Shown: positions 12,635 to 30,667 of the stretch, in pieces
How the letters are laid out: every line of letters starts with the position of its first letter
Numbering within the stretch: position 1 is the first letter of the stretch
Assembly (NCBI GenBank): GCA_947589215.1
Contig: CANQCL010000019.1
Span: 1 to 35,238 of the forward strand
Origin: an uncultured Clostridia bacterium
Lineage (GTDB): Bacteria; Bacillota; Clostridia; Oscillospirales; Ruminococcaceae
DNA length: 35,238 nucleotides
Direction of reading: 5' to 3'
Program-made: the position numbers and the translations under genes
The notes under the pieces: generated by a model
Seen by the model: the letters and a program-made list of their open reading frames with translations, nothing else
Database searches by the model: none
What the model was told of the DNA's origin: nothing

Positions 12635-15600
12635 TTAAAAATAAATCCTTTTCCCTTCTAATGTCATATCATCATAAAATGATAACCACAGTGCCTCTTT
12701 TTCGCTTTTGCTGATATTCATACGCTTTATTCTGTTATATATCTTTTCATTAGTTCCCTCTCCGCTTATTCCGCTTAATTGCTCACGAGAGATTATGAAA
12801 TCAGCATAACTCATTCCCTTTTCGTTAGCTTGAATTGCACTCCTAATCCAACCATCTGGCTCATAATCACTTACTCCTTGCTTAGCTATTGCATTTGAAA
12901 GCTCATATGATTTAGTAATTAAGGTTGCCTTGTCACTACTGTCAGCAGACGTAAATTCAGAATTTTTTGAAAAATCACTCAAAATACTATGTGCAATTTG
13001 TCCTCTTACTGTAGCATAAGTAGTATAATCATCAGAATTTAAATTAATTGTCTTTCCTCCTAAGCTAAAATACTTTTTGGATTTAGTCGGAAGGACCGCA
13101 GGATCTCCACTGTTCTTATATGTGTCGTCAAGCATTTTCTCAGCTTCATCAACCTCAATTTTTGAAACATAACCTGGAGAAATAAAGTTTTCAAAAATTC
13201 TCATTCCTATATTATTTTCCTTTTCCTGTTCTCCCCACTCATTCACATAAGGCTCTAATAAATATGTTGCACCGGGTATTTTCTTAATGATTCTATTTAC
13301 AAATTGTTGCTGTGAACTTGTAAGTAATTTTGATATGAAAGTATCTTTTGACTTATCAATATAAGAGTTTCTCCTTGTTCCGTCAACAGTGCTTGCTATC
13401 TTTCCGCCAATAGTAGGTACAGCCTGTCCTAAATATGAAGATACTATATTCGACATGCCAGCTATTATGGGGCTTTCACTATACTTGATATTGTTAATTA
13501 AATTTTCAATTCCACTAAGTACAGACATTTCAAACATAGGATCAAACATTGTACCTGCTAAATTCAGATAATCTGAAATTGCTAAACCATTGTTATCTCC
13601 TTCTAGTATTTCATGTGTCTTTGCCCCTGCAAATAAAGGTATAGCAGCAGGACACGCCCAATCAAAAGTATAAGAATATCCGAATATTTCAACAGAAAGT
13701 TCCTGGTGTCCTTTTAACTTTTCAAAATCCTTTTCTTTTTTATCATCACCTAAACCTACTTTTAACAGTCCAAGCGAACCTAACCAAAGTCCTAAAGTGT
13801 ATATTCCTGCTCCTGTTAATCCTGCTGAAATCCTGTCTATATATTCACTGGCAGTGATTTTTCCAGTTTTCAAATTATAAATGTCTTTAGTTACATTTTT
13901 TATAAGTCCAAGCGGACTATATTCAAATGCACGCTTTGCTATGTTGACTGGTGTCTTTTTAAATGGAATAATACCCTCCATCACTATTTCGGTTGCCCAA
14001 TTAGATTTTGCAATTCGGCTCAAAGCATCTGCAATCTTAGATGCGTCTCTGTATGTAGCCTTTTGTGCTTCTGTAATTGCTCTTACTCTGCCTCTATCAA
14101 TAGCTGCTTGTCGCTCATTTTCAGCTTTTGTATCTGATAATTCATTAAGTGAGATGTTATTTGCCTGCAAATACATACCTAATGCACGTTCGTAATGATG
14201 TTTTAAAAATATTCCGTCCTCTGCTTCTAATAGATTAATATTTAAATTTCTTAATCCCTCAAATTTTTTGTTATTAAAAATAACCTTATTTGCCTTTATT
14301 GCATCGGTAGACTCATATTTTCCGTTGCCTGTTAATTCAGCCTTAACATAGTCGAAATCTTGTTTTGCAAATTCTTTATAAGCAGCTTTAACCTTTAAAG
14401 CCTTTGACTTTTCTATGTCACCCTTTAGAAATGCTTTCTCTAAACCATAAGCAATCCCATTTTTCATACTAACAGCAGGCATAAATATCGTGTTTCCTAC
14501 CACATTTCTGATATGCGTGGTTGAATTAAACAGCATAGACATATATCGCCAAGCATTCCATTTGTCAATCCAAGTAGCAGGTACTTGCTTACCTATATCC
14601 TTGTTCAACTCAATTTCCGCTTCTTCAATTTCTGTTTGTGTTTTTGCTTGCGCTAATTTTAATGCCAAATCCTCGTCTATTTTAATTTGCGGAATTTCCT
14701 TGCCCTTTGCTAATTTGTTTGAATACTTTGCTTGATAATCGGCATTCATTCTCCGTACGGTTTGTTCAATATAATATAACTTTCCTATACCAGAGGATTT
14801 CTTTAACAACCTCATAGCTTGTACTGTCTGTCCTGCTGTGGTTGCCATTTCAGCAAGTTCACCTGTAAGCTGTATAACTTTCTTGGTCTCATTGTTTTGT
14901 GCGGCATACCGTAACAAAAGCTCACCTTTAGCAACGTCTATAGCAGACACCTTATGATTTCTGTTTTTCATAATTTCCCAGTCGTTCCATTGCTTCTCGG
15001 TAACGCCCTTACCCTTATTATCAAGCCACTCTTTAGCTATTGTAAGAGCTTTTTCATTGCTCAAAGGCATATAAGACGCAGCGCCTTTGACTATTTGCTT
15101 ATCGACTTCATTAACCATTTCATCAGTCAGCACACCGCTTTCCAAAATGGTCTTTACAAATTCTCTTACACGCTTGTCTTTGCTTGACCTTTCAGGTACA
15201 TCAATATCCCTTACAGGATTTTCACCTTTTTTCTTTGTGCCGTATTGCTCGTTAAGAGTTTTCATTTGGCTTTCTACATCAGGGTCTAATGAGTATTGTG
15301 TATCATTCTTAGACTTTTTTCGTATATTACTATTGACAATATCATCATTTTGTGATATATTGTTATTGGCAGATAAAGTTATTGACTTGAACGCACTTCG
15401 GTCCGTTCTCGAAACTTTATCTGCTATTTTAATTTTATGAATATAAAATCTATTACCTTGACGTACTTTTTTAATGTCCATATTCACAATATATTTTTTT
15501 CCATCTATTGTGATTGGAGAAGTTAAATATGCATATGTAGATTGACTATTTGGATTATAATTATTAGGTTGTTCTTTTGCTCTGACCTCACCGTATTTAA

Positions 15601-18600
15601 TTAATTTCGCAAGGTTAGTCATAGTTGCTAATTTTGCTTTTTTCATATTCGAGGGAATATTCCTATACGCTGAATGATTTCCAAAGGTCTCGTAAATACC
15701 ACTTTTCCATATTTCAATTTTCATTCCTGTGTCAATATTAATTATTGGTTTAGATTGAGCTTCAGTTGATACATAATTATTTAAAAGTTTATTATATACT
15801 TTTTCTTGCACTTCACTTAAATCATTAATATTTTTAATATCAAATTTATCGGCAATACCTTCAGTTGTAACCCTAACATCAGGATTATAACCGCCTAGCT
15901 TTTTGCTGTATTTGACTTCATTTGAATATGTTCCGTTTTTCCTAACATCATTAAATGCCTTTGTATAAAGCTCCTTAATGTGTATAAGGTCTTTCTGTGC
16001 CGCTGTAATCTCCGTAGAATTTCTAACAAATCTTTTGAGATTATCAATCATTTTGTGAATAAAATCTACTACCTTTGCAAACAGCTTTTTGTCCTTATAC
16101 GCAAGTTCCCTTATACATTCTTCATTGGTTAGTAATTCATCTGCAATAAAGTCAGCTATAAGCTCTCGCTCCGCTTCCTCTTTTGTCAACTCCTTGCCGT
16201 TCTTTTCATATAATTCCTGACGTTTTGATATTTCTGCCTTGTGTGTTGTATCATTAGAAGTAAGATAATCGTCATAAACTCGGCTGTTCAGTATAAATGT
16301 TTTAAGCTGGTCATAGTAATTCGATTGCTCAAGGGTATGCGTAAGCTCATGCGCAAGAATAAAATTGAACTCAGAAGCGCTGTTTGCTTTGCTATTCACA
16401 TAACTCTCATTAATAAATACTTCGCCGTTTTGTTCATATCCTCTTACAGACGTATCACTGTTATAAACATTGATTTTTACACCCAGAGCAGTTGACAGGC
16501 TCTTAGCTGACTGCCTTATATTAATTCTACTAGTTTCACTTTTAGCATTAATATTAACTTTTTTATTCTGTGAAGTACGTTGATTACTAACATCAGTTTT
16601 TCTAACACCGCTTGTAACTTTATTTTTGTTGTCTACAAAAGTTCCGTTAGCAGTATTACGCCCTGCATTTATAGCGGCATTAAATGTTTTTTCTCCCAGT
16701 ATGGCTCTAGCTCCTCTAGTTTGTGAAGCTATTGTATCCATACTCAAACCTTTTTCAGCCATTCTATAAACTGAATTAAAAGCAACAGAATAATTTTCCG
16801 CTGTATTTTTACTGCTATCATAATTTAATATGAATGTATTAGCGGTACTGCTATTATACTTTCCTGCATTTGATAAAATGATTTCAGCATTTTTATTATC
16901 AGAAAAGTCAATAGTATCAGCAGGCACAACTTCGCCATTTGTCATCAACAATTGAGCAACGCCATTTTCAACAGACTCTACCTTTCTTATATTGGTTGAG
17001 CCTGTTTTTTCGCTTGAAATACCAAGCTTTATAATTTTATTTGAATTGTTCACGACCCTCTTGAATGTACTTTTAAAGTTATCTAAAACATTGTCACTAT
17101 ATGTATTGTTATTTGGATCTTCTGTTTCATCATCTGCTGTTAAATTTTCGGGTATAGCTTCGCTGACCTCATCTATTTGTGAAGTCATATTAGGCTCTGT
17201 AGCGTTCTGTAATGCCATTTGATTAGTATTAGTCAAATTACCCTCATCAGCATTTAAAACCTCATCTGAGCCATTCTCGTTTGAATTTTCGACTAAATTC
17301 TGATTGCTTTGCATATTACTTCTTATATTATTCAGAATTGTAGCTGTATCAATATTCTTTTTTCCGTTCTGAGCTTGATTTATTACTTCCCGAACAGTTT
17401 CGTTATCAAAATCAGAAGTTATCTTTCCTTCCTTTAAGCCTGCCATTTGACCAAGCATATCAGCAGCGGTCTTATTGTACTTTAGTTCAACGATCTCACT
17501 ATCTGCGATTTTTTCGCCTCTATCAATTTTATTGATAGTTTTCGTTAGTCTTTTTGCTTTTTCTTGACTAGCTTCTGTTTCAGAAAAAACGGCTTCAACG
17601 GTTGGAGGTTCAATATTATCTGTTTGATTTTCATTTTGCTTTTCGGCAAGTAATTGTTCTTGATATGCGTTATATATATTTTTAGCTTTTGAAAGTTTTT
17701 TATCTGAAATTTTGTTGGCGACAGCATTTACTGTTCCTGTTGCTACAGCACCTGCTGTATTAGTCATTCCTGCTGAAGCTAAACCTAAAAGACCAGAATA
17801 CAAAGCGTCCTCCACATTTTGGAGCGTTTGCTTATTATTTTCGCCAAAAGTAACATTTCGAATATAAGGCTCTAATAACTGTTGAATTGCCTCTTCATTA
17901 AATTCTCCTGCACTATTAATTAAGATATTTCCTGCTTGGTATGCATATGTTCTAAAGGTTTCATTTTTAACAAGTCTTGGCATAACGTTGTTAAGAGCTT
18001 TTGTTCCGAACTTTTCTAAAGCTCCGTTCATTCCAAATTGTCCGCCAAGTATTTTTTGCGTTGCAAACTCCATAAGACCTTGAATACCGCCATATGTAAG
18101 CGCTTCCGAATTATTTTTACCCTCTAATAATGCCTGATTATATGCTTGTCCAGCTGCACTGACACTTTGTGAGATCATTCCTAATCCCGGCATTCCAGTA
18201 GCAAATGATATACCTATACTTGGTAGCATATTAGCCGTTGTATTAACAGCATTAAGAGCAAAACGCTTTACAACTCCTGATTGGTTTGCATCAGATTGAA
18301 AAGCTACTTCAGATGCAGAAGCAATTTTGTCATAATCAGACGGTTTTACACTGTTGCTACCTACACCCCCAAACCAACCATTTATAGCTTGCAATGCGCC
18401 TTTCCCTGCACCGATTAATCCACTTTTTCCAGCATTAATAAATTCCTCTAATGTGCCATTTTCCTGCGCCTCTTTTAAGCCATCAATTGTATTTTGTTGC
18501 TGAACAGCATAAAGTACATATTTACTAGCTTCTTCCTTACCATACTTACCGCGTAAGTAATAATATCTTATTTTGTCATCCTCACTCGTTAAACGTGAAA

Positions 18601-19597
18601 AGTCTTCATCGTTTTCTTTAGTATCGTATGCGCCTAATTTTATGGCATTAATACTATCTTGGCTATTGTTAATACCTTCAGATGCTAATTTCATTCCTTC
18701 TTTTAATTTTCTTTGAAATAAGGTTCCATTATCATTATCCTTTGAAAGTAAAAGTGCTTCCTTGTCTGTTTCTGATTTTTCATCTAAAGTCTTTAGCCAT
18801 TCTTCGTAGTCATGAGCAGCTAAATGTTCTTTATCATTTTCCTCATATTTTTTTATAATTTTATCTACTTTTGTATCTACACTATTTTTTTCATCGTTTT
18901 CTAGTTTTTTCATTAACGCTTCTCTCTGTTGCATTAATTGAGGATTTTTCTCAACTTCTGCTTTAAGCAGCCTAATATCTTGTCCAGAAACATATTTTTT
19001 TATATTTTCATCAATTATTCCATTATTTGCATAAACCGAATTTAATGACTCATTAAATAAATCATCCTGATAATTATTGGTGATATATTTAATTTTCTTA
19101 TCAATATCATCTATTTGAGAGTTTAAAGCTTTATTCTTAGAATAATTTCCATTAGTTAGTGTGACTAATCCAAGTTTATTTTTTAAAACCTCTTTGCGCT
19201 TTTTGAGAGAACTAATCGTATCATTATACTCATCCTCTTTTGCTTGCTTATATGACTTCAAATATATATCATTAACTATACTATCAGATTTTGCCTGATT
19301 ACGTTCTTTTGTGAAAATTTTAATATTTTCATCGTTTCTATTGCGTTGTGATACATAATTATCTGCTGCATTTTTTATAGTGTTGTAATTATTCAAGGCA
19401 TTATCTGCAATAGAAATATTAGAATTTGTCCTTTTTTGAGTTTCTTTTTTTAAATTAGCTTTAATATACTCGTTTTTCTCCCTCTGTTGTATTTTATAAA
19501 AATTCTCATCAGCTTGTTGCTGAAGTTTTCTATAATTCTCGGTTCTTTTAGCGTTAGTCTTCTCTATATGCTTTAAACGTTTTTCAAGCTCTGTCAT
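12635..19597 (-). CDS. Giant phage polyvalent protein with metalloprotease motif (2320 aa)
   Basis: Visible parts in order: a highly charged coiled-coil region (residues 1-380); a Gly/Ala-rich hydrophobic zone with possible membrane-inserting helices (about 385-640, e.g. MLPSIGISFATGMPGLGMIS); an Asn-rich linker; a zincin-type site HELTH at 1083-1087 (FILAHELTHTLEQS), then KEEAERELIADFIADELL, which supplies a likely third ligand; a mixed domain near 1236-1395 resembling LPD3-like parts of phage polyvalent proteins; long helical regions; hydrophobic helices near 1920-1950; and a C-terminal helical tail. Such proteins travel in podovirus virions and enter the cell with the DNA, where the segments act on the wall, membrane or host. 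It is the last late gene, 14 nt after an internal virion protein. No frameshift is visible over 7 kb. Confidence 0.78.
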   Translation of the reverse strand: MTELEKRLKHIEKTNAKRTENYRKLQQQADENFYKIQQREKNEYIKANLKKETQKRTNSNISIADNALNNYNTIKNAADNYVSQRNRNDENIKIFTKERNQAKSDSIVNDIYLKSYKQAKEDEYNDTISSLKKRKEVLKNKLGLVTLTNGNYSKNKALNSQIDDIDKKIKYITNNYQDDLFNESLNSVYANNGIIDENIKKYVSGQDIRLLKAEVEKNPQLMQQREALMKKLENDEKNSVDTKVDKIIKKYEENDKEHLAAHDYEEWLKTLDEKSETDKEALLLSKDNDNGTLFQRKLKEGMKLASEGINNSQDSINAIKLGAYDTKENDEDFSRLTSEDDKIRYYYLRGKYGKEEASKYVLYAVQQQNTIDGLKEAQENGTLEEFINAGKSGLIGAGKGALQAINGWFGGVGSNSVKPSDYDKIASASEVAFQSDANQSGVVKRFALNAVNTTANMLPSIGISFATGMPGLGMISQSVSAAGQAYNQALLEGKNNSEALTYGGIQGLMEFATQKILGGQFGMNGALEKFGTKALNNVMPRLVKNETFRTYAYQAGNILINSAGEFNEEAIQQLLEPYIRNVTFGENNKQTLQNVEDALYSGLLGLASAGMTNTAGAVATGTVNAVANKISDKKLSKAKNIYNAYQEQLLAEKQNENQTDNIEPPTVEAVFSETEASQEKAKRLTKTINKIDRGEKIADSEIVELKYNKTAADMLGQMAGLKEGKITSDFDNETVREVINQAQNGKKNIDTATILNNIRSNMQSNQNLVENSNENGSDEVLNADEGNLTNTNQMALQNATEPNMTSQIDEVSEAIPENLTADDETEDPNNNTYSDNVLDNFKSTFKRVVNNSNKIIKLGISSEKTGSTNIRKVESVENGVAQLLMTNGEVVPADTIDFSDNKNAEIILSNAGKYNSSTANTFILNYDSSKNTAENYSVAFNSVYRMAEKGLSMDTIASQTRGARAILGEKTFNAAINAGRNTANGTFVDNKNKVTSGVRKTDVSNQRTSQNKKVNINAKSETSRINIRQSAKSLSTALGVKINVYNSDTSVRGYEQNGEVFINESYVNSKANSASEFNFILAHELTHTLEQSNYYDQLKTFILNSRVYDDYLTSNDTTHKAEISKRQELYEKNGKELTKEEAERELIADFIADELLTNEECIRELAYKDKKLFAKVVDFIHKMIDNLKRFVRNSTEITAAQKDLIHIKELYTKAFNDVRKNGTYSNEVKYSKKLGGYNPDVRVTTEGIADKFDIKNINDLSEVQEKVYNKLLNNYVSTEAQSKPIINIDTGMKIEIWKSGIYETFGNHSAYRNIPSNMKKAKLATMTNLAKLIKYGEVRAKEQPNNYNPNSQSTYAYLTSPITIDGKKYIVNMDIKKVRQGNRFYIHKIKIADKVSRTDRSAFKSITLSANNNISQNDDIVNSNIRKKSKNDTQYSLDPDVESQMKTLNEQYGTKKKGENPVRDIDVPERSSKDKRVREFVKTILESGVLTDEMVNEVDKQIVKGAASYMPLSNEKALTIAKEWLDNKGKGVTEKQWNDWEIMKNRNHKVSAIDVAKGELLLRYAAQNNETKKVIQLTGELAEMATTAGQTVQAMRLLKKSSGIGKLYYIEQTVRRMNADYQAKYSNKLAKGKEIPQIKIDEDLALKLAQAKTQTEIEEAEIELNKDIGKQVPATWIDKWNAWRYMSMLFNSTTHIRNVVGNTIFMPAVSMKNGIAYGLEKAFLKGDIEKSKALKVKAAYKEFAKQDFDYVKAELTGNGKYESTDAIKANKVIFNNKKFEGLRNLNINLLEAEDGIFLKHHYERALGMYLQANNISLNELSDTKAENERQAAIDRGRVRAITEAQKATYRDASKIADALSRIAKSNWATEIVMEGIIPFKKTPVNIAKRAFEYSPLGLIKNVTKDIYNLKTGKITASEYIDRISAGLTGAGIYTLGLWLGSLGLLKVGLGDDKKEKDFEKLKGHQELSVEIFGYSYTFDWACPAAIPLFAGAKTHEILEGDNNGLAISDYLNLAGTMFDPMFEMSVLSGIENLINNIKYSESPIIAGMSNIVSSYLGQAVPTIGGKIASTVDGTRRNSYIDKSKDTFISKLLTSSQQQFVNRIIKKIPGATYLLEPYVNEWGEQEKENNIGMRIFENFISPGYVSKIEVDEAEKMLDDTYKNSGDPAVLPTKSKKYFSLGGKTINLNSDDYTTYATVRGQIAHSILSDFSKNSEFTSADSSDKATLITKSYELSNAIAKQGVSDYEPDGWIRSAIQANEKGMSYADFIISREQLSGISGEGTNEKIYNRIKRMNISKSEKEALWLSFYDDMTLEGKRIYF

Positions 19598-20951: not shown

Positions 20952-21410
20952 TTATATACCTATTGCTATCCATGAAACAGTTGTAGGCGTAGTGTCGTTT
21001 CTGCAAAAGACTAATTTAAACTCATTTGCTTTTCTCTCTGTATAACTGCAAAAAACATTTTGCGGAACTAATGTATAAGGTGTAACCAATATAGACGGAG
21101 GATTATTAAAAGACTTATTAAAAACTATTGTTTTTGAAACTGAAACGCCTGCACTTGTCGGAGTTAAAAGTACATCGCCCCATTGAATTTTAAGATTGCT
21201 ACTAAGTTCAACAAGATTATTTGTTCCTGTCTTGACCTCACCTTTCAGCGAACTGATAGCTGTTGAACTAAAATTCTTTAAAGTCAGATTTCCTAACAAA
21301 TATACAAGTTCGTCTGTAAAAAGCTGAAGAAACGACTCTATTGATGAAACTCTAACATCAAGCGGCGAGTTTTTATTTGTATTATTAAATCTTTGTAATA
21401 ACTGTGCCAT
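20952..21410 (-). CDS. Small fibre protein with lectin-like tip domain
   Basis: A protein of 152 residues. The first 45 residues are helical (SSIESFLQLFTDELVYLLGN) and could trimerise or attach it to the tail. The C-terminal 90 residues show the pattern of H-type-lectin-like phage fibre tips: LKIQWGDVLLT, VFNKSFNNPPSILVTPYT, and the closing VSWIAIGI (beta-sandwich with a WxAIG end). Such tips bind sugars or receptors. The ATG shares one base with the stop of the 878-residue gene (TAATG), so they are coupled. Likely part of the adsorption apparatus. Confidence 0.68.
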   Translation of the reverse strand: MAQLLQRFNNTNKNSPLDVRVSSIESFLQLFTDELVYLLGNLTLKNFSSTAISSLKGEVKTGTNNLVELSSNLKIQWGDVLLTPTSAGVSVSKTIVFNKSFNNPPSILVTPYTLVPQNVFCSYTERKANEFKLVFCRNDTTPTTVSWIAIGI

Positions 21411-24863: not shown

Positions 24864-25856
24864 CTAGTTAGCTTTTGCGATGTTTGAATTGGTTGACTTT
24901 GAATATATGTCTAAAATATACTCAGGCGAAAGAACTATACCTGTCTTTGCACCCTTCCAACCAATTGTACCTCTCTGATTTAACGGGTCTGCCGTACCGC
25001 CTGAACCAAGTGCTTTGATTATTGTCTGCAATCCCATACCCTCAAGGTCGATTGTTCCATATGCATTTGCACCTAGTAAGAGTGTTCCGTATACGCCGCC
25101 ATCGAAAATTTTCGCCATAGTGCTTTCTACGAAACGAACTCTTCCTATTTTTCCGATTTCTCCTTCAAAAATCTGCTGTGAACCTGCATACAGCGAAGCC
25201 TCAATCCATTCCTTATCACTCATAATGTCATAAGCAATATCCGGGTGAATAATGCATACAAAATACTTATCCACAGGCTTTGCATTCATTCTTGTAAGAA
25301 TATTTACTCCCCTCTTAATCAGGTCAACTGTTACCTTACAAGTATCATCAAGTTCCTCTTTGCTTGTTACCTCTGTTCCGTCTGACTTCGGAGCATAAAG
25401 CACATTGGTTGTTGAATGCATAATATCACGGTCAACAATATCCATTGTTTGTCCGCCTTGAGTTGCCAATAACTCTTGCATTTCCAAAATTGTATTATCA
25501 ACTGTAGTTGTTGAAATAATATCCGAATACTCTGCAAATGCGCCATATTGTTCAATGGTTGCAGTTTTATTCGTTACTTTGATTTTCTGTCCCTTAGGAG
25601 TTACGCCTTCTTCTAATGGCGTTTTGATAGGCGGCAGGCTTTCAAATTTTCTAAAATCCACCGTTTTGCCTCCGTGTTTTGGAAGCGGTCTCTTTTGTGC
25701 GAACTGACTATGTACTAACTGAGGTTTAAATTCCTTGATTAAGTTCTTATTGTAAAACTTAATCATCTCAGGTGACATTCCCTCATCAGATGTTCTGTTA
25801 GTGTCGTTTTCAGCAAACATTCTCAAATTTAATTTGCTTAGAATTGCTTTTGTCAT
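24864..25856 (-). CDS. Major capsid protein, N4-gp56-like, with Prp-type leader
   Basis: A protein of 330 residues. The body (LVHSQFAQKRPLPKHGGKTV, then TTVDNTILEMQELLATQGGQ and RVRFVESTMAKIF) matches the N4-gp56 family of HK97-fold major capsid proteins that form the shell. The first 14 residues, MTKAILSKLNLRMF, followed by AEND, closely resemble the L27 leader LNLQFF-A that the Prp protease removes; cutting after Phe14 would leave Ala15 as the new N-terminus. The start at 25856 is chosen because GAAGGAGAG lies just before that ATG and within an upstream reading. It follows the scaffold gene by 29 nt. Capsid identity is well supported; cleavage is predicted. Confidence 0.85.
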   Translation of the reverse strand: MTKAILSKLNLRMFAENDTNRTSDEGMSPEMIKFYNKNLIKEFKPQLVHSQFAQKRPLPKHGGKTVDFRKFESLPPIKTPLEEGVTPKGQKIKVTNKTATIEQYGAFAEYSDIISTTTVDNTILEMQELLATQGGQTMDIVDRDIMHSTTNVLYAPKSDGTEVTSKEELDDTCKVTVDLIKRGVNILTRMNAKPVDKYFVCIIHPDIAYDIMSDKEWIEASLYAGSQQIFEGEIGKIGRVRFVESTMAKIFDGGVYGTLLLGANAYGTIDLEGMGLQTIIKALGSGGTADPLNQRGTIGWKGAKTGIVLSPEYILDIYSKSTNSNIAKAN

Positions 25857-25885
25857 TTTAAATCTCTCCTTCATTTCTTGAAGAG

Positions 25886-26824
25886 TTAAAACTTTATCTT
25901 ATCTCCGTTTCTAACTCTTCGCTTAATTTCTTCGAAATCCTTGTCATCAAGTTTATCGACGCTGTTTTTGATGTTTGCAGGAGAATTGCTTGTGATGCCA
26001 TTTTCATTAGGTCTAAGTCCTTTAGCTCTTATCGACTGAACTGTCTTTGCTTTAGCTTGTTCAACTGCTTTTGGAACTACCTTGTTGATAATATCCTTTG
26101 CATGAACAGCTTCGTAAGCGTCTTTCAGCGACCAACCATATGTTATGAGACTGTTAAACTTCTCATTTTGAAGTTCCTCATCAAAGTCGAAGTCAGGAAT
26201 TTGTTGTTTAAGCTCGTTAGCTTCTTTTTCCCATTGATTTATGTATTCCTGCTGCTGCTTTTCAGCTTTCAAATCTTCAAGCTCTTTAACGACCTTATTC
26301 ATTTTCTCTTCCTGTCTAAGGTGTTCACGATAATCATTAACTGACATACCGCTTTCAAAGGCTCTCTGCTCATAAAAGCTGTCATCATCTTGGATAGCGC
26401 TCATCAGTTTGTCAAAGTCATCGGCTTTTAGACCATACTTTGCTGATATCACTTCTGCCATTTGCTTATAATTTTCAAGTTGAGCTTCGATTTGTTTGGT
26501 TTCCTTAAACCGTTCATTAATTATGCCTTGTACTTTGGAATGAAACTCAGACTTATACTTATCTTTAATAAGCTCATCAAATGACGTCTCCTGCTTGTTA
26601 TCGTCTGTTTCAGGGATTTCAGACGTGTTTTCTGCTGTTGTATCATCGTCTTGTATTCCGTATACAACCTCTTGTGATGATTGGGTGCTATCATCTGTGC
26701 CGGTGGTTTCGCCCGTAAGTGCAGCTTCGCTATTCCCTGCGACGTCTCCGTTTGACGTGTCAGCTGATTCATCGCCAAAAACAGTCAAGTCGATAGCCAC
26801 TGCTCGATCAATAATTGCTTTCAT
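25886..26824 (-). CDS. Capsid scaffold protein
   Basis: A protein of 312 residues. The N-terminus, MKAIIDRAVAIDLTVF followed by GDES, has the same hydrophobic-Phe pattern as the capsid leader (D-L-T-V-F then small residue), a likely Prp cut after Phe16. Residues 20-90 are acidic and Thr/Asn-rich, residues 90-260 are coiled-coil helix (KMNKVVKELEDLKAEKQQQE), and the C-terminus is basic (KDFEEIKRRVRNGDKIKF), the usual capsid-binding hook. Scaffolds line the procapsid and are removed during maturation. AAAAGGAG precedes the ATG, and a 28-bp repeat lies upstream. Confidence 0.82.
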   Translation of the reverse strand: MKAIIDRAVAIDLTVFGDESADTSNGDVAGNSEAALTGETTGTDDSTQSSQEVVYGIQDDDTTAENTSEIPETDDNKQETSFDELIKDKYKSEFHSKVQGIINERFKETKQIEAQLENYKQMAEVISAKYGLKADDFDKLMSAIQDDDSFYEQRAFESGMSVNDYREHLRQEEKMNKVVKELEDLKAEKQQQEYINQWEKEANELKQQIPDFDFDEELQNEKFNSLITYGWSLKDAYEAVHAKDIINKVVPKAVEQAKAKTVQSIRAKGLRPNENGITSNSPANIKNSVDKLDDKDFEEIKRRVRNGDKIKF

Positions 26825-26917
26825 TAGGTTTGCTCCTTTTCTTAATCCTCGTCTTTCCGATGTGTCAGCTCATATCCGAGCCTGTAATTTAAGTATATAA
26901 ATATAAATTATATTTTT

Positions 26918-26945
26918 CTAGGTGGACAATTTGACAATAATTTTT
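26918..26945. promoter_or_regulatory. 28-bp late-operon box, copy 1
   Basis: CTAGGTGGACAATTTG followed by ACAATAATTTTT is identical over all 28 bases to 34450-34477. It contains GACAATTTGACAAT, two direct GACAAT half-sites 8 bp apart. On the minus strand TTGTCA (plus 26932-26937) lies 19 bp before TATAAT (plus 26907-26912), so it may be a weak promoter needing an activator, in front of the scaffold gene. Confidence 0.6.
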
Positions 26946-26961
26946 ATAAGCAGAATTATCC

Positions 26962-27348
26962 CTATTCTTTTATTACTGAATAAAAATTATTTTGCTTTTT
27001 ATTTATGCAAACATTATCTATACTGTCTATTCCCATTACCTGAACATTCTTGGGATATTTGCATTCAAGCATTTCATAGCCTTTTATAATACCCCTTAGT
27101 ACATTAAGAGATGTATTAACGTCAATAAATTCAGCTTCTATGTTCATATATCCCTCAGATTTTGAAGATTTGACGTTCTTTAAAAGATTTTCTTCTTCAA
27201 AATCGGCTATCGCCTGCCAAGCAGTAAAGGTAAGCATACTACACGCTGAACAAACTATATCATTTTCTTTGTTATACCCTGCATGACCGTATACCCTTAA
27301 TATAAATTGTTTTGTTTTTTCGTTATAAAAACATTCAACTGTTGTCAT
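26962..27348 (-). CDS. Prp-family cysteine protease (phage copy)
   Basis: A protein of 128 residues. YGHAGYNKENDIVCSACSML holds the Prp catalytic pair: His22 in GHAG and Cys33 in DIVC, in the same order and spacing as in the bacterial ribosomal-processing protease Prp (YsxB family; His22 and Cys34 in the S. aureus enzyme). Host Prp removes the N-terminal leader of ribosomal protein L27 at an LNLQFF-A-like site. Here the gene lies between portal and scaffold, where phages usually keep a prohead protease, and scaffold and capsid both have matching leaders. A phage-specific maturation protease is therefore likely. There is no other protease in the head module. AGAGGGA precedes the ATG. Family is clear; substrates are inferred. 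Confidence 0.83.
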   Translation of the reverse strand: MTTVECFYNEKTKQFILRVYGHAGYNKENDIVCSACSMLTFTAWQAIADFEEENLLKNVKSSKSEGYMNIEAEFIDVNTSLNVLRGIIKGYEMLECKYPKNVQVMGIDSIDNVCINKKQNNFYSVIKE

Positions 27349-27357
27349 AATTCCCTC

Positions 27358-29226
27358 TTAATCCACTCTTGTAGTGTTTTGAACTTTATTTTTTGCATTT
27401 TCCTGCGCCGTTTGAGCTTTTGGATTACGCGATGCCAAAGAATTAGATTGCAGCTTAGTCAGTTCCCCTTCGTTCATATTGCCTGTTGGGTTTTCCTGTT
27501 CATTAATTTGCGTCCCTTGAACTGTCTGCTCTCCAATGTTCCCACCTGTCTGAGCATCCAACATTGCCGAAACTTGTGCAAGCTGTTGCTGCATTTGTAA
27601 TATTTGTTGGTACATAGTGGCGTTTTTACCTATTTTAGCCTTAATGGTGTTTTTATTCTCAAAGTCCATACCTTCAATAAGAACTAAAGCTTGATCTGCC
27701 ATTTGCGGATTGAAAACACCTAGTTGATAAAGCTGTATCATCAACTCATTTTGTGAGAGCTTGTTAAATGGATTTGACTTTTGTGCTGTTACTTTTATAT
27801 CAAATATAGGCAATCTCTCGCCCATATCAAAACCAAATTCGTCACCTTGCTGTTGAGGTTTAATATTAGAATTATCAAGGGTTCTGAACTCTTCGTCTCC
27901 ATGTTCCCCGATAATTCTAAAACATCTCGGTTCATCATAGAACTGTCTGATATTTTCAATAACAAAATTGCAGATTTTCACAAATGCTCTATAGCTTGCC
28001 TTTATCTGGTCTCTTGAAAGTTTACTGCCTGCTTCCATCAACGAAGCTATTGCTGTACCTGATGTAACGCCGCTTGAAGTAGAACCTTGAGAAAAATCTC
28101 TGTTTCCTGATGTTTCTTTAAGTTCTTCTACTTTATTGTTAAGCAAAGTCACATATATTGACGGTAACGGATTAACATTGAGTTGCCTTACACTGTCCTC
28201 TCCTATATCAGTTCCTGATACGTCAATAAAGTCGTTATCCCAATTTGCAAACTGCTCTTTATTTATTTTTGCACCGTATTTTATAAAAAATCTAGGCTTA
28301 CACGCAAGTTTTGCATTTTTTAATACAACATCATTAAGCTCGTCTATGTATGCCTGAGGCGATTTCATAATATCAACAAATCCAAAACCGGTAGGAGAAC
28401 CTTCGTCTTGAAACATCACATCAAACACAAACGGATATTCACCGTGATCATATAAGCCTTTTTCCTTATACTGTTCATCATTTTCGGTAGCGTATAAAAC
28501 TGTTGAATTTACAAACTTGACATAGTGAAGTTTGTTATCTTTTTTATAATACCAGTCAATTACGGCGGATTTATTCGTTGTATCTATATTATCATCATAG
28601 GCATACTTCGCAATTTCAAAAGTGTTGCCTCCGAGTGTTCCTTTAAGTTCCTCATATTGATTTTCAAGAACATCATTATCAATAAGCATTACATAAAATA
28701 CGTTTTTGCTTTCTTGAATGTTAGTTATGCCGGGTTCCCAAAAGAGATTTAATAAATCAACCTTTTTTATTTCTATATCTCCTAGACCGTTATTTGCATT
28801 AGAGTTCCAAAAAACTCCCGTTACTGAAGTTCCAACCTTTAGCTTGTACCACCATGTATCTGAATACGTTTGCTCATAGTTGTTTTGCTCAAAGACAACC
28901 GGAAGAACCTCCGAAAGCACCTTAGCTGTATCCTTATCGCTTTCTTCTCTGGGCAAAACATTAGGCTCTGGATAATTATCCATTGCGTCTGCGTGCTTAT
29001 TGAGAAGAGAATTAAACAACCAAGCAGATGTAGCAGGCGTATGCGGACCGCTAGGCTTTGAATGCATTACCTCCCAATGCCTCAACTTAAACCATTTATT
29101 GTTTTCTATTATTCTTCTTTCAAGGTCAGATTTGCTTTCTTTGTATTTTTCTAAAATCGACCTTGCCTTTAAAACTTCATTTTCACCTATAGCAGATTTG
29201 TTCTTTGTTTTCTTCTTACCAAACAT
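27358..29226 (-). CDS. Portal protein
   Basis: A protein of 622 residues forming the ring through which DNA enters and leaves the head. The helical N-terminus (SILEKYKESKSDLERRIIEN), the wing region (ATSAWLFNSLLNKHADAMDN), the segment SSGVTSGTAIASLMEAGSKL followed by SRDQIKASYRAFVKI, and a Gln-rich C-terminal helix (MYQQILQMQQQLAQV) fit the P22-like portal family of podoviruses. It lies 16 nt after the large terminase, the canonical order. The long C-terminus suggests a barrel extension, common in this class. No truncation is seen. Confidence 0.85.
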   Translation of the reverse strand: MFGKKKTKNKSAIGENEVLKARSILEKYKESKSDLERRIIENNKWFKLRHWEVMHSKPSGPHTPATSAWLFNSLLNKHADAMDNYPEPNVLPREESDKDTAKVLSEVLPVVFEQNNYEQTYSDTWWYKLKVGTSVTGVFWNSNANNGLGDIEIKKVDLLNLFWEPGITNIQESKNVFYVMLIDNDVLENQYEELKGTLGGNTFEIAKYAYDDNIDTTNKSAVIDWYYKKDNKLHYVKFVNSTVLYATENDEQYKEKGLYDHGEYPFVFDVMFQDEGSPTGFGFVDIMKSPQAYIDELNDVVLKNAKLACKPRFFIKYGAKINKEQFANWDNDFIDVSGTDIGEDSVRQLNVNPLPSIYVTLLNNKVEELKETSGNRDFSQGSTSSGVTSGTAIASLMEAGSKLSRDQIKASYRAFVKICNFVIENIRQFYDEPRCFRIIGEHGDEEFRTLDNSNIKPQQQGDEFGFDMGERLPIFDIKVTAQKSNPFNKLSQNELMIQLYQLGVFNPQMADQALVLIEGMDFENKNTIKAKIGKNATMYQQILQMQQQLAQVSAMLDAQTGGNIGEQTVQGTQINEQENPTGNMNEGELTKLQSNSLASRNPKAQTAQENAKNKVQNTTRVD

Positions 29227-29242: not shown

Positions 29243-30667
29243 TCAAACTTTGCTGTTTAACTGATTTAAAGGATCGCCCGGCATAATTCTGCAAGGCTTC
29301 ATCAAATTCTGTCTTGGACTAATAGGATTAGTCATTAGGACATAGCGGCATTCGTCATATATATGGTCTTCCATTTCTGTATCAATGTCCTCAACTTTAT
29401 GCTCGTCGTATATAAGAAGGGGTATTGTCCTGATAAAATGCTTGCAAGTATTAAATACCTGAAACATAGGCTCGCCATCACTATCAAATGCAAACCTATA
29501 ATGAAACTGCATCTTTCCGGCAATTCTTGTATTATCTCCCTTGCTCCACGTAACATAATAAGGGTGGCTTGCCATCATATCGGCAACGCTTTCACCTCTG
29601 CTTCTGTCAAAAATAGATGGGTCTGCAACGCCGATTATATTCTTTCCTTTCAGATTTTCGTCTGTATCTTCAATCTCTTTAATATTTTTAGCTATTTCCT
29701 GAGGAGTGATTTTAAGACCCTCATTAGCATTACTTGTACAACCGTAATACTCACGAATACGATAAATCTTTCCCTCTGTATCGACCGCATACCAGCCAAC
29801 AGAAAACGGTTTTGCATATCCAAAATCAAAGCCCCTGTAAATAAGCCAATGCGGCGGCACTTTAAACGGTTCGATAACATGAGTATATTTACCGTCTTTA
29901 TAGTGCTTTGGATCGTTTGTCCACTCAGTAAACACCTGACCGTCAAAGCTATCCCAGTCTCCATACAGCAACGCATTACGTTCTTTTTCCGGCAGCATAG
30001 CAAGACGAGCCAAATATGTAGGATCATTTTTCAGAAGTTCTTTATTATCAAACACGTTAGACGGAATGAATATCCGGCTAGTTGTCATCGTTATCAATTC
30101 GCCCTTATCATCAACGACAGAAACATTTTCAGTTATACGAGTCATTGGCGGTGCAGGAGTTAAAAATCTTTGTTTTACCCATCCATGTCCTATTCCGCCT
30201 GGATTGGCAGTTGCTCTCACATAACATCTAGTATTCGGTCCGTTAGGACGATTACGTGAAAGCATATAAATATATTGCTCTTCTAAAAACTGAGTTAATT
30301 CATCAAATGCAATATATTCATAATCCTGACCTTGATAATTATATTTATCACTTTCTCTGTTCATATTTGCAAGATAAATTTTAGCTCCAGACGGAAACAC
30401 CCAAGTATGAGTGCCGGAGTTATACTTTGCTTGTGGGAATGCCCTTGTATAAATCTGATAACTTCTATCTATCAGCTTTTTTAACTGCGGATATGTCCGT
30501 CTGAAAATAATCCCACGATAAGTGGGAATATTCACTTGTCTTGTGGCTTCTGCAAGTAAAGCGTCGCTTTTACCTCCTCCTGCACTTCCTCCGTACAGAC
30601 ATTCATTTTCACTCCTGCTCATAAATAGAGCCTGCTTTGGCTGAGGTTTCCATACAGCATTATTCAT
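29243..30667 (-). CDS. terL: Large terminase subunit
   Basis: The DNA-packaging motor and headful or end-cutting nuclease, 474 residues. The ATPase part has Walker A GGSAGGGKS (residues 26-34, Lys33), the arginine-rich stretch IIFRRTYPQLKKL, and Walker B YIAFDELTQF with Asp122-Glu123. The C-terminal RNase-H-like nuclease shows GFDFGYAKPFSVGW (first aspartate) and GVADPSIFDRSRG (second), with late acidic residues near DIDTEMEDHIYDE. All motifs are intact. It overlaps the small subunit gene by 8 nt, so the two are coupled. TerL pairs with the portal encoded next. Confidence 0.95.
   Translation of the reverse strand: MNNAVWKPQPKQALFMSRSENECLYGGSAGGGKSDALLAEATRQVNIPTYRGIIFRRTYPQLKKLIDRSYQIYTRAFPQAKYNSGTHTWVFPSGAKIYLANMNRESDKYNYQGQDYEYIAFDELTQFLEEQYIYMLSRNRPNGPNTRCYVRATANPGGIGHGWVKQRFLTPAPPMTRITENVSVVDDKGELITMTTSRIFIPSNVFDNKELLKNDPTYLARLAMLPEKERNALLYGDWDSFDGQVFTEWTNDPKHYKDGKYTHVIEPFKVPPHWLIYRGFDFGYAKPFSVGWYAVDTEGKIYRIREYYGCTSNANEGLKITPQEIAKNIKEIEDTDENLKGKNIIGVADPSIFDRSRGESVADMMASHPYYVTWSKGDNTRIAGKMQFHYRFAFDSDGEPMFQVFNTCKHFIRTIPLLIYDEHKVEDIDTEMEDHIYDECRYVLMTNPISPRQNLMKPCRIMPGDPLNQLNSKV

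Follow-up and report, generated by a model that had tools for sequence, protein, structure and literature searches.

A Prp-family protease gene among the head genes of a gut Clostridia prophage, and its probable role in trimming the phage's own capsid and scaffold leaders

The window analysed here, a stretch of 35,238 nucleotides that forms an entire contig (C19) of the 1.98-Mb genome of an uncultured Clostridia bacterium, carries a temperate phage, with repressor-like and integrase genes at the left end. This phage very probably encodes its own prohead protease, a member of the Prp family (MEROPS C108) that, judged by sequence, would trim the leaders of the phage's own capsid and scaffold proteins. 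The protease gene sits between the portal and scaffold genes, within the head module (Table 1), which is the place of a phage prohead protease. Such a placing of a phage-borne Prp had been proposed in the preliminary description of this DNA, and it was supported by the conserved gene position and by the matching and co-varying leaders of related loci. The coordinates of the three genes concerned, all on the minus strand, were also verified. The product encoded between Prp and capsid was named scaffold because of its location and its relatives.

According to the proposed mechanism, Prp would be expressed as part of the head module, alongside portal and scaffold, and would cut the capsid leader after Phe14 and the scaffold leader after Phe16 by means of a His22/Cys33 dyad. 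In both proteins the predicted cut (marked by an arrow throughout) falls at the N-terminus, after the Phe of a site that approximates x-L/I-N/D-L-x-x-F↓A/G/D, and it would probably be timed to procapsid assembly. In the window host, the cutting would fall to the phage enzyme and not to the cellular Prp, a phage Prp lineage with its own diverging specificity replacing the host Prp that Staphylococcus aureus phage 80alpha borrows. The scaffold leader may be needed for assembly and its removal may be dispensable, as excerpts of PMC5744158 describe for 80alpha; since 80alpha with uncleavable capsid or scaffold is still viable according to the same excerpts, trimming need not be essential.

Table 1. 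Head-module features of the window and predicted leader sites.
Feature	Position	Strand	Basis
Terminase large subunit	29243..30667	-	Pfam PF03237, 52.2 bits
Portal protein, P22-like	27358..29226	-	Pfam PF16510, 117.8 bits
Prp-family cysteine protease, 128 aa	26962..27348	-	Pfam PF04327, 47.7 bits; PHROG 4478
His22 codon, catalytic dyad (aligns with His22 of the S. aureus enzyme)	27283..27285	-	ORF translation
Cys33 codon, catalytic dyad (S. aureus Prp: Cys34)	27250..27252	-	ORF translation
Scaffold protein, 312 aa	25886..26824	-	phrog_13908, 212 bits (functionless entry); location between Prp and capsid
Scaffold leader (residues 1-16), putative cleavage behind Phe16 (AIDLTVF↓GD)	26777..26824	-	10.1 bits, scaffold matrix
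Major capsid protein, longest ORF 336 aa	24864..25874	-	phrog_1357 major head protein, 244 bits
Capsid leader (residues 1-14, numbered from the ATG at 25856), putative cleavage behind Phe14 (KLNLRMF↓AE)	25815..25856	-	23.2 bits

The 128-residue protein with the motifs GHAG (His22) and DIVC (Cys33) was present in the ORF translation as originally described, and it also carries Asp30. Its match to the Pfam Peptidase_Prp model was well above the cut-off of 27 bits, and the matching PHROG entry is labelled 'peptidase'. As a single query the protein matched the solved Prps weakly (Thermotoga maritima 1s12, E 6.4e-4; S. aureus 4peo, E 0.035), and a profile built from 48 phage Prps matched S. aureus Prp (4peo/7kld) at 5e-14. 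By these sequence matches it belongs to the Prp cysteine protease family (PF04327/C108). It does not behave as a cellular orthologue: its gene does not lie between those of L21 and L27, and it does not group with cellular Prps in the tree. The NCBIfam equivalog models had no discriminating power here, as the phage protein scored 35.9 bits against a cut-off of 171 and the host's own Prp was likewise below (54 vs 133). This host Prp is encoded between L21 and L27, the latter bearing a leader (MIRISMQFF↓AHKKG), and direct sequence comparison of the phage and host enzymes gave an E of 0.008.

With regard to the window leaders, the longest capsid ORF begins 6 codons ahead of the start implied by the numbering of the preliminary description. 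Since the sequence AAGGAG lies between the two ATGs, ahead of the ATG at 25856, this inner start is the likelier one, with a predicted cut after Phe14. The capsid leader was found as described and had the best-scoring site of the 53 window ORFs of at least 80 aa, using a matrix whose training set includes this site itself. The scaffold leader was likewise present, and its site ranked 4th among the 53 ORFs (8.1 bits), outscored among others by those of an ORF resembling a tail-fibre gene (11.1 bits) and of one that is probably non-coding (10.6 bits). Its score was reached by 6% of scaffold shuffles with the capsid-trained matrix and by 0.5% with the scaffold-trained matrix, in whose training the window scaffold is included. 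Thus, the predicted scaffold site is statistically marginal by itself, and it is made convincing by the related loci rather than by the window alone. The tail-fibre-like ORF (20952-21410, minus strand) encodes a gp53-like protein with ESFLQLF↓TD near its N-terminus, possibly a further substrate or a chance occurrence. Elsewhere in the window, a 2320-aa ORF (12635-19597, minus strand) takes up one fifth of its length and had no PHROG match at E 0.001, and an ABC-transporter ATPase and an ABC-2-type membrane protein are carried by the phage at 5687-7506 (plus strand).

No relative was found when the window Prp or capsid was used as a single query against IMG/VR, or by tblastn of the window Prp against phage records; a capsid profile did recover relatives. 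The best 80 loci from bacterial genomes and the best 80 from viral contigs were taken from the capsid profile search. Among annotated phages, relatives of the capsid occur in gut phages bearing Prp, and also in Bacillus and Paenibacillus phages in which neither Prp nor leader was seen. A total of 174 listed loci were scanned with a Prp profile built in this analysis, which matched 140 ORFs. L017 and L018-L043 were left out of the analysis, and L011, L012, L016 and L162 were removed before the motif and portal counts, resulting in 170 loci, of which 129, one per capsid cluster, formed the non-redundant set. The dropped L162 lacked both Prp and scaffold, and portal-like sequence forms the beginning of its capsid ORF. 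The portal gene was found upstream of the capsid gene in 143 of the 170 loci, and Prp was present in 138 of those (106 of 110 in the non-redundant set); Prp beside the portal is the usual arrangement in the related loci examined. Moreover, the distance from the portal end to the start of the Prp domain had a median of 27.5 bases, with 105 of 106 falling within -60 to +700 bases, and the His and Cys of the dyad were kept in all 106 non-redundant phage Prps (Asp30 in 86 and Gly21 in 99).

Five of the 143 portal-bearing loci (L010, L047, L091, L097 and L111) lacked Prp and kept the capsid leader, and therefore phages of this kind can do without Prp. A second Prp in the genome of L047 is part of another prophage, and one in that of L097 lies beside L21. 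Eight further candidates for Prp-less loci (L059, L061, L062, L065, L067, L087, L092 and L116) were rejected, as portal followed by Prp was found elsewhere in the genome in all of them. One of these, L092 of Massiliimalia timonensis (G178:C1:735000-770000; L240, L241), departs from the usual adjacent order of portal, Prp, scaffold and capsid: here portal and Prp stand ~17 kb upstream, on the strand shared with scaffold and capsid.

The motif search, which was seeded with the window capsid site, gave the capsid leader consensus K-L-N-L-Q-L-F↓A, and the scaffold consensus was almost identical. In the non-redundant set, 122 of 129 capsids had a site above the 99th percentile of shuffles, as did 103 of 122 scaffolds (92 of 122 with the capsid-trained matrix); the remaining 19 scaffolds fell below the threshold, so that a site is recognisable in most scaffolds but not in all. 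Furthermore, the two leaders resembled each other within loci, with a mean identity over six positions of 0.657 compared to 0.453 when permuted (5000 permutations, z 14.7, n=99), as illustrated by KKLHTQMF↓D and KKLHTHMF↓D in L005, PNFYTF↓D and PNFYSF↓D in L172, and LNLRLF↓D twice in L073. Part of this likeness comes from common descent. Allowing for capsid-body distance in a partial Mantel analysis (n=88), capsid and scaffold leaders were correlated with r 0.51 and either leader with Prp with r 0.28, values reached by none of 2000 permutations. The residue after the cut was acidic in the capsids of 21 of 88 Prp-bearing loci, and the scaffold was likewise acidic in all 21, an acidic residue in the scaffold alone appearing in 10 more. 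A stricter test, on pairs independent of one another in the tree, comprised only 5 pairs, with a mean of 2.1 concordant and 0 opposite, too few for significance. The 99 natural pairs of capsid and scaffold leaders provide material for learning the specificity of Prp.

Prp and scaffold formed a single open frame in 16 of the 170 listed loci (9 non-redundant), five of them from Faecalibacterium. A predicted cleavage site was found between the two parts in all 16 fusions, with scores of 13.1-26.5 bits where shuffles set the threshold at 9.3. In L133 and L140, the stretch scanned around the junction site contains no start codon, and therefore the leader-bearing scaffold should derive from the fused chain; an internal start for the scaffold is possible in the other fusions. 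Serine proteases are linked to the scaffold in other phages, and the Prp-scaffold fusions parallel this arrangement using a different enzyme.

The hosts bear directly on the role of the phage enzyme. Genomes were queried for 43 hand-picked loci out of the 80 from genome contigs, 6 of which yielded no L27, and L27 was located in a total of 38 genomes (37 of these 43 and the window host). It had a leader in 25 genomes, every one with Prp beside L27, and was leaderless (MAHKKG or MASKKG) in 13, none of which had Prp beside it. In 12 of the latter L21 directly adjoins L27; in the thirteenth, a Muribaculaceae bin (G188), the stretch showed no L21, and the bin may contain a misassigned contig. All 17 Prp copies of the leaderless-L27 genomes lie in phage head modules, as matched by contig coordinates, including two identical copies 40,160 bases apart in G167 and one in G154 that belongs to a prophage of another kind (ORFs read by eye). 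For Faecalibacterium sp. I4-1-79, a complete chromosome by its title with a leaderless L27, the sole Prp match was the fused Prp of the phage; the remaining genomes are drafts, in which a host Prp may have been missed. As L27 is leaderless and Prp occurs solely in phage modules, these phages can rely on neither a host Prp nor an L27 substrate. Of all the evidence, these 13 hosts speak most strongly for an action on the capsid and against one on L27. In Faecalibacterium, which lacks a cellular Prp, capsid trimming would need the phage enzyme, so its role is directly testable there, and the name 'ribosomal-processing protease' would mislead for the phage copies. As a separate observation, in the other prophage of G154 (L252, contig C31) a thioredoxin-like ORF adjoins Prp, and a KLQLF↓A leader was seen by eye on scaffold-like, capsid-like and tail-like proteins.

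The preliminary description had also proposed that capsid maturation would not depend on the host copy. This is supported by the relatives in hosts without Prp beside L27; the window host has a cellular Prp, and therefore independence is extended to it from these relatives. It is improbable that the phage leaders are cut by the host Prp, as with 80alpha, leaving the phage copy superfluous or acting on a different substrate. Such a reading would fit the Prp and the L27 leader of the window host, as well as the Prp-less L047, L097 and L111, each in a host genome with Prp beside L27, and the QxF↓A capsid leaders of the Prp-less phages (4 of 4 vs 66 of 99 Prp-bearing ones, non-redundant), a difference that was not significant (p 0.30). 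However, it does not fit the 13 leaderless-L27 hosts, where the phages retain their leaders and all Prp copies lie in phage modules, nor the many phage leaders (F↓D, KLHTHMF) that differ from the L27 sites seen. Alternatively, the leaders might be an assembly signal that is not cleaved, Prp being their neighbour by chance, and for 80alpha the excerpts of PMC5744158 do describe assembly as needing the intact scaffold leader, not its cleavage. This would leave unexplained the intact dyad of the Prps found beside leaders (106/106) and the sites at the fusion junctions (16/16), and a signal role is compatible with cleavage, all of which makes it very unlikely. Finally, an action of the phage Prp on host L27 that alters ribosome assembly, suggested earlier and compatible with its family membership shared with the L27 protease, is hardly credible and found no support, given that 13 of 38 hosts have no L27 leader, that a correct cut would yield normal L27, and that the window-host L27 site (RISMQFF↓A) departs from the phage sites at several positions.

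Regarding the origin of the phage protease, one branch (SH-aLRT 97) of a 134-row tree splits 106 phage Prps from 27 L21-linked Prps, in a tree of 111 columns that is unrooted and has many unresolved forks. The Prp of Brochothrix phage BL3 groups with the host Prps. Prp matches in Enterococcus and Listeria 'phage' records lie beside L21 and were set aside, as they look bacterial. The tree argues against repeated recent capture from hosts, and it does not give the direction of transfer. A speculative and rather unlikely scenario is that the cellular L27-trimming Prp is the domesticated prohead protease of a large and old phage group, acquired by bacteria together with a leader on L27, and that Prp still occurs in phages alone or as a self-releasing Prp-scaffold chain. 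The single branch between phages and hosts, the more varied phage side in the sampled set and the existence of hosts lacking both cellular Prp and L27 leader are compatible with domestication. A transfer from host to phage fits equally well because the tree is unrooted and short.

A different arrangement of head genes was observed in one gut Clostridia genus, where all six genomes examined (G161, G162, G164, G189, G165 and G193) carry the capsid gene at 86-100% identity. In G161, G162 and G164, scaffold-capsid, portal-Prp and the large terminase gene (TerL) are on three separate contigs, while in G189 one contig holds portal-Prp and TerL at a distance of ~44 kb and a second one holds the capsid. 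The loci concerned are L285, L062, L283 and L284 (scaffold-capsid), L235, L236, L292 and L242 (portal-Prp), and L286, L289, L287 and L288 (TerL). Genes resembling hisS/aspS (named by eye) adjoin scaffold-capsid in G161, G162 and G164; portal-Prp has two neighbour genes that are shared among G161, G164 and G189, and TerL likewise has two that are shared among G161, G162, G164 and G189. The dN/dS values were 0.045 and 0.090 for the capsid and 0.061 for the portal, with dS high or saturated, and 0.40 for Prp in the sole computable pair. These split head genes may represent a gene-transfer-agent-like element; against this, TerL adjoins scaffold-capsid in G165, and the bins are drafts. A literature search on gene transfer agents with rumen Clostridia gave no paper on the subject, as judged by title and abstract.

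Prp has so far been studied as an L27 protease and antibiotic target, and the loci described here suggest a gut phage group with its own Prp lineage, likely a capsid-maturation enzyme, even in bacteria without an L27 leader or Prp beside L27. Among the literature surveyed, mostly titles and abstract openings, no description was recognised of a phage whose own Prp is paired with L27-type leaders on its capsid and scaffold, nor of a Prp-scaffold fusion, a family-wide arrangement, co-varying leaders or hosts without Prp, which is weak evidence of novelty. Phage-encoded C108 proteases as such are already known from Streptococcus phage Cp-1 (excerpts of PMC12445089), BL3 gp6 and PHROG 4478. In Cp-1, as in the present proposal, a phage-encoded C108 protease trims the major head protein at its N-terminus according to these excerpts; in contrast, 48 residues are removed there, and the site (INH↓A by our own count) is not of the L27 type. 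The gene is likely Cp-1 orf13, annotated as hypothetical, a weak Prp match (22.8 bits with the profile built here; 18.5 with Pfam, below its cut-off of 27). Phage 80alpha resembles the window phage in its use of a Prp-family enzyme and in the L27-like leaders of scaffold and capsid, cut after Phe (excerpts of PMC5744158 and PMC9405229). However, 80alpha borrows the host Prp, whereas the window phage has its own, and many sites of the window-phage relatives differ from those of L27 (e.g. F↓D, F↓E). A short unannotated Prp-like ORF of Dorea phage DO134P1 (L263:5073-5261; 20.3 bits) adjoins a scaffold-like protein (ANLQLF↓AEG) and a capsid-like protein (KLGLQVF↓T). Brochothrix phage BL3 has a head-module Prp as in the window phage (gp6, annotated 'peptidase'; Pfam 73.7 bits), together with leaders on its scaffold (KMNLQLF↓AEP) and capsid (RMNLQKF↓AAG), but its capsid and portal are outside the window family as far as seen, and its major tail protein is likewise leader-bearing (KMDLQKF↓AGE). 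Finally, HK97, T4 and lambda have serine prohead proteases that are encoded beside portal and scaffold, and are sometimes joined to the scaffold; these enzymes have other folds and serine chemistry, whereas Prp relies on a catalytic cysteine and makes a single cut that removes a short leader.
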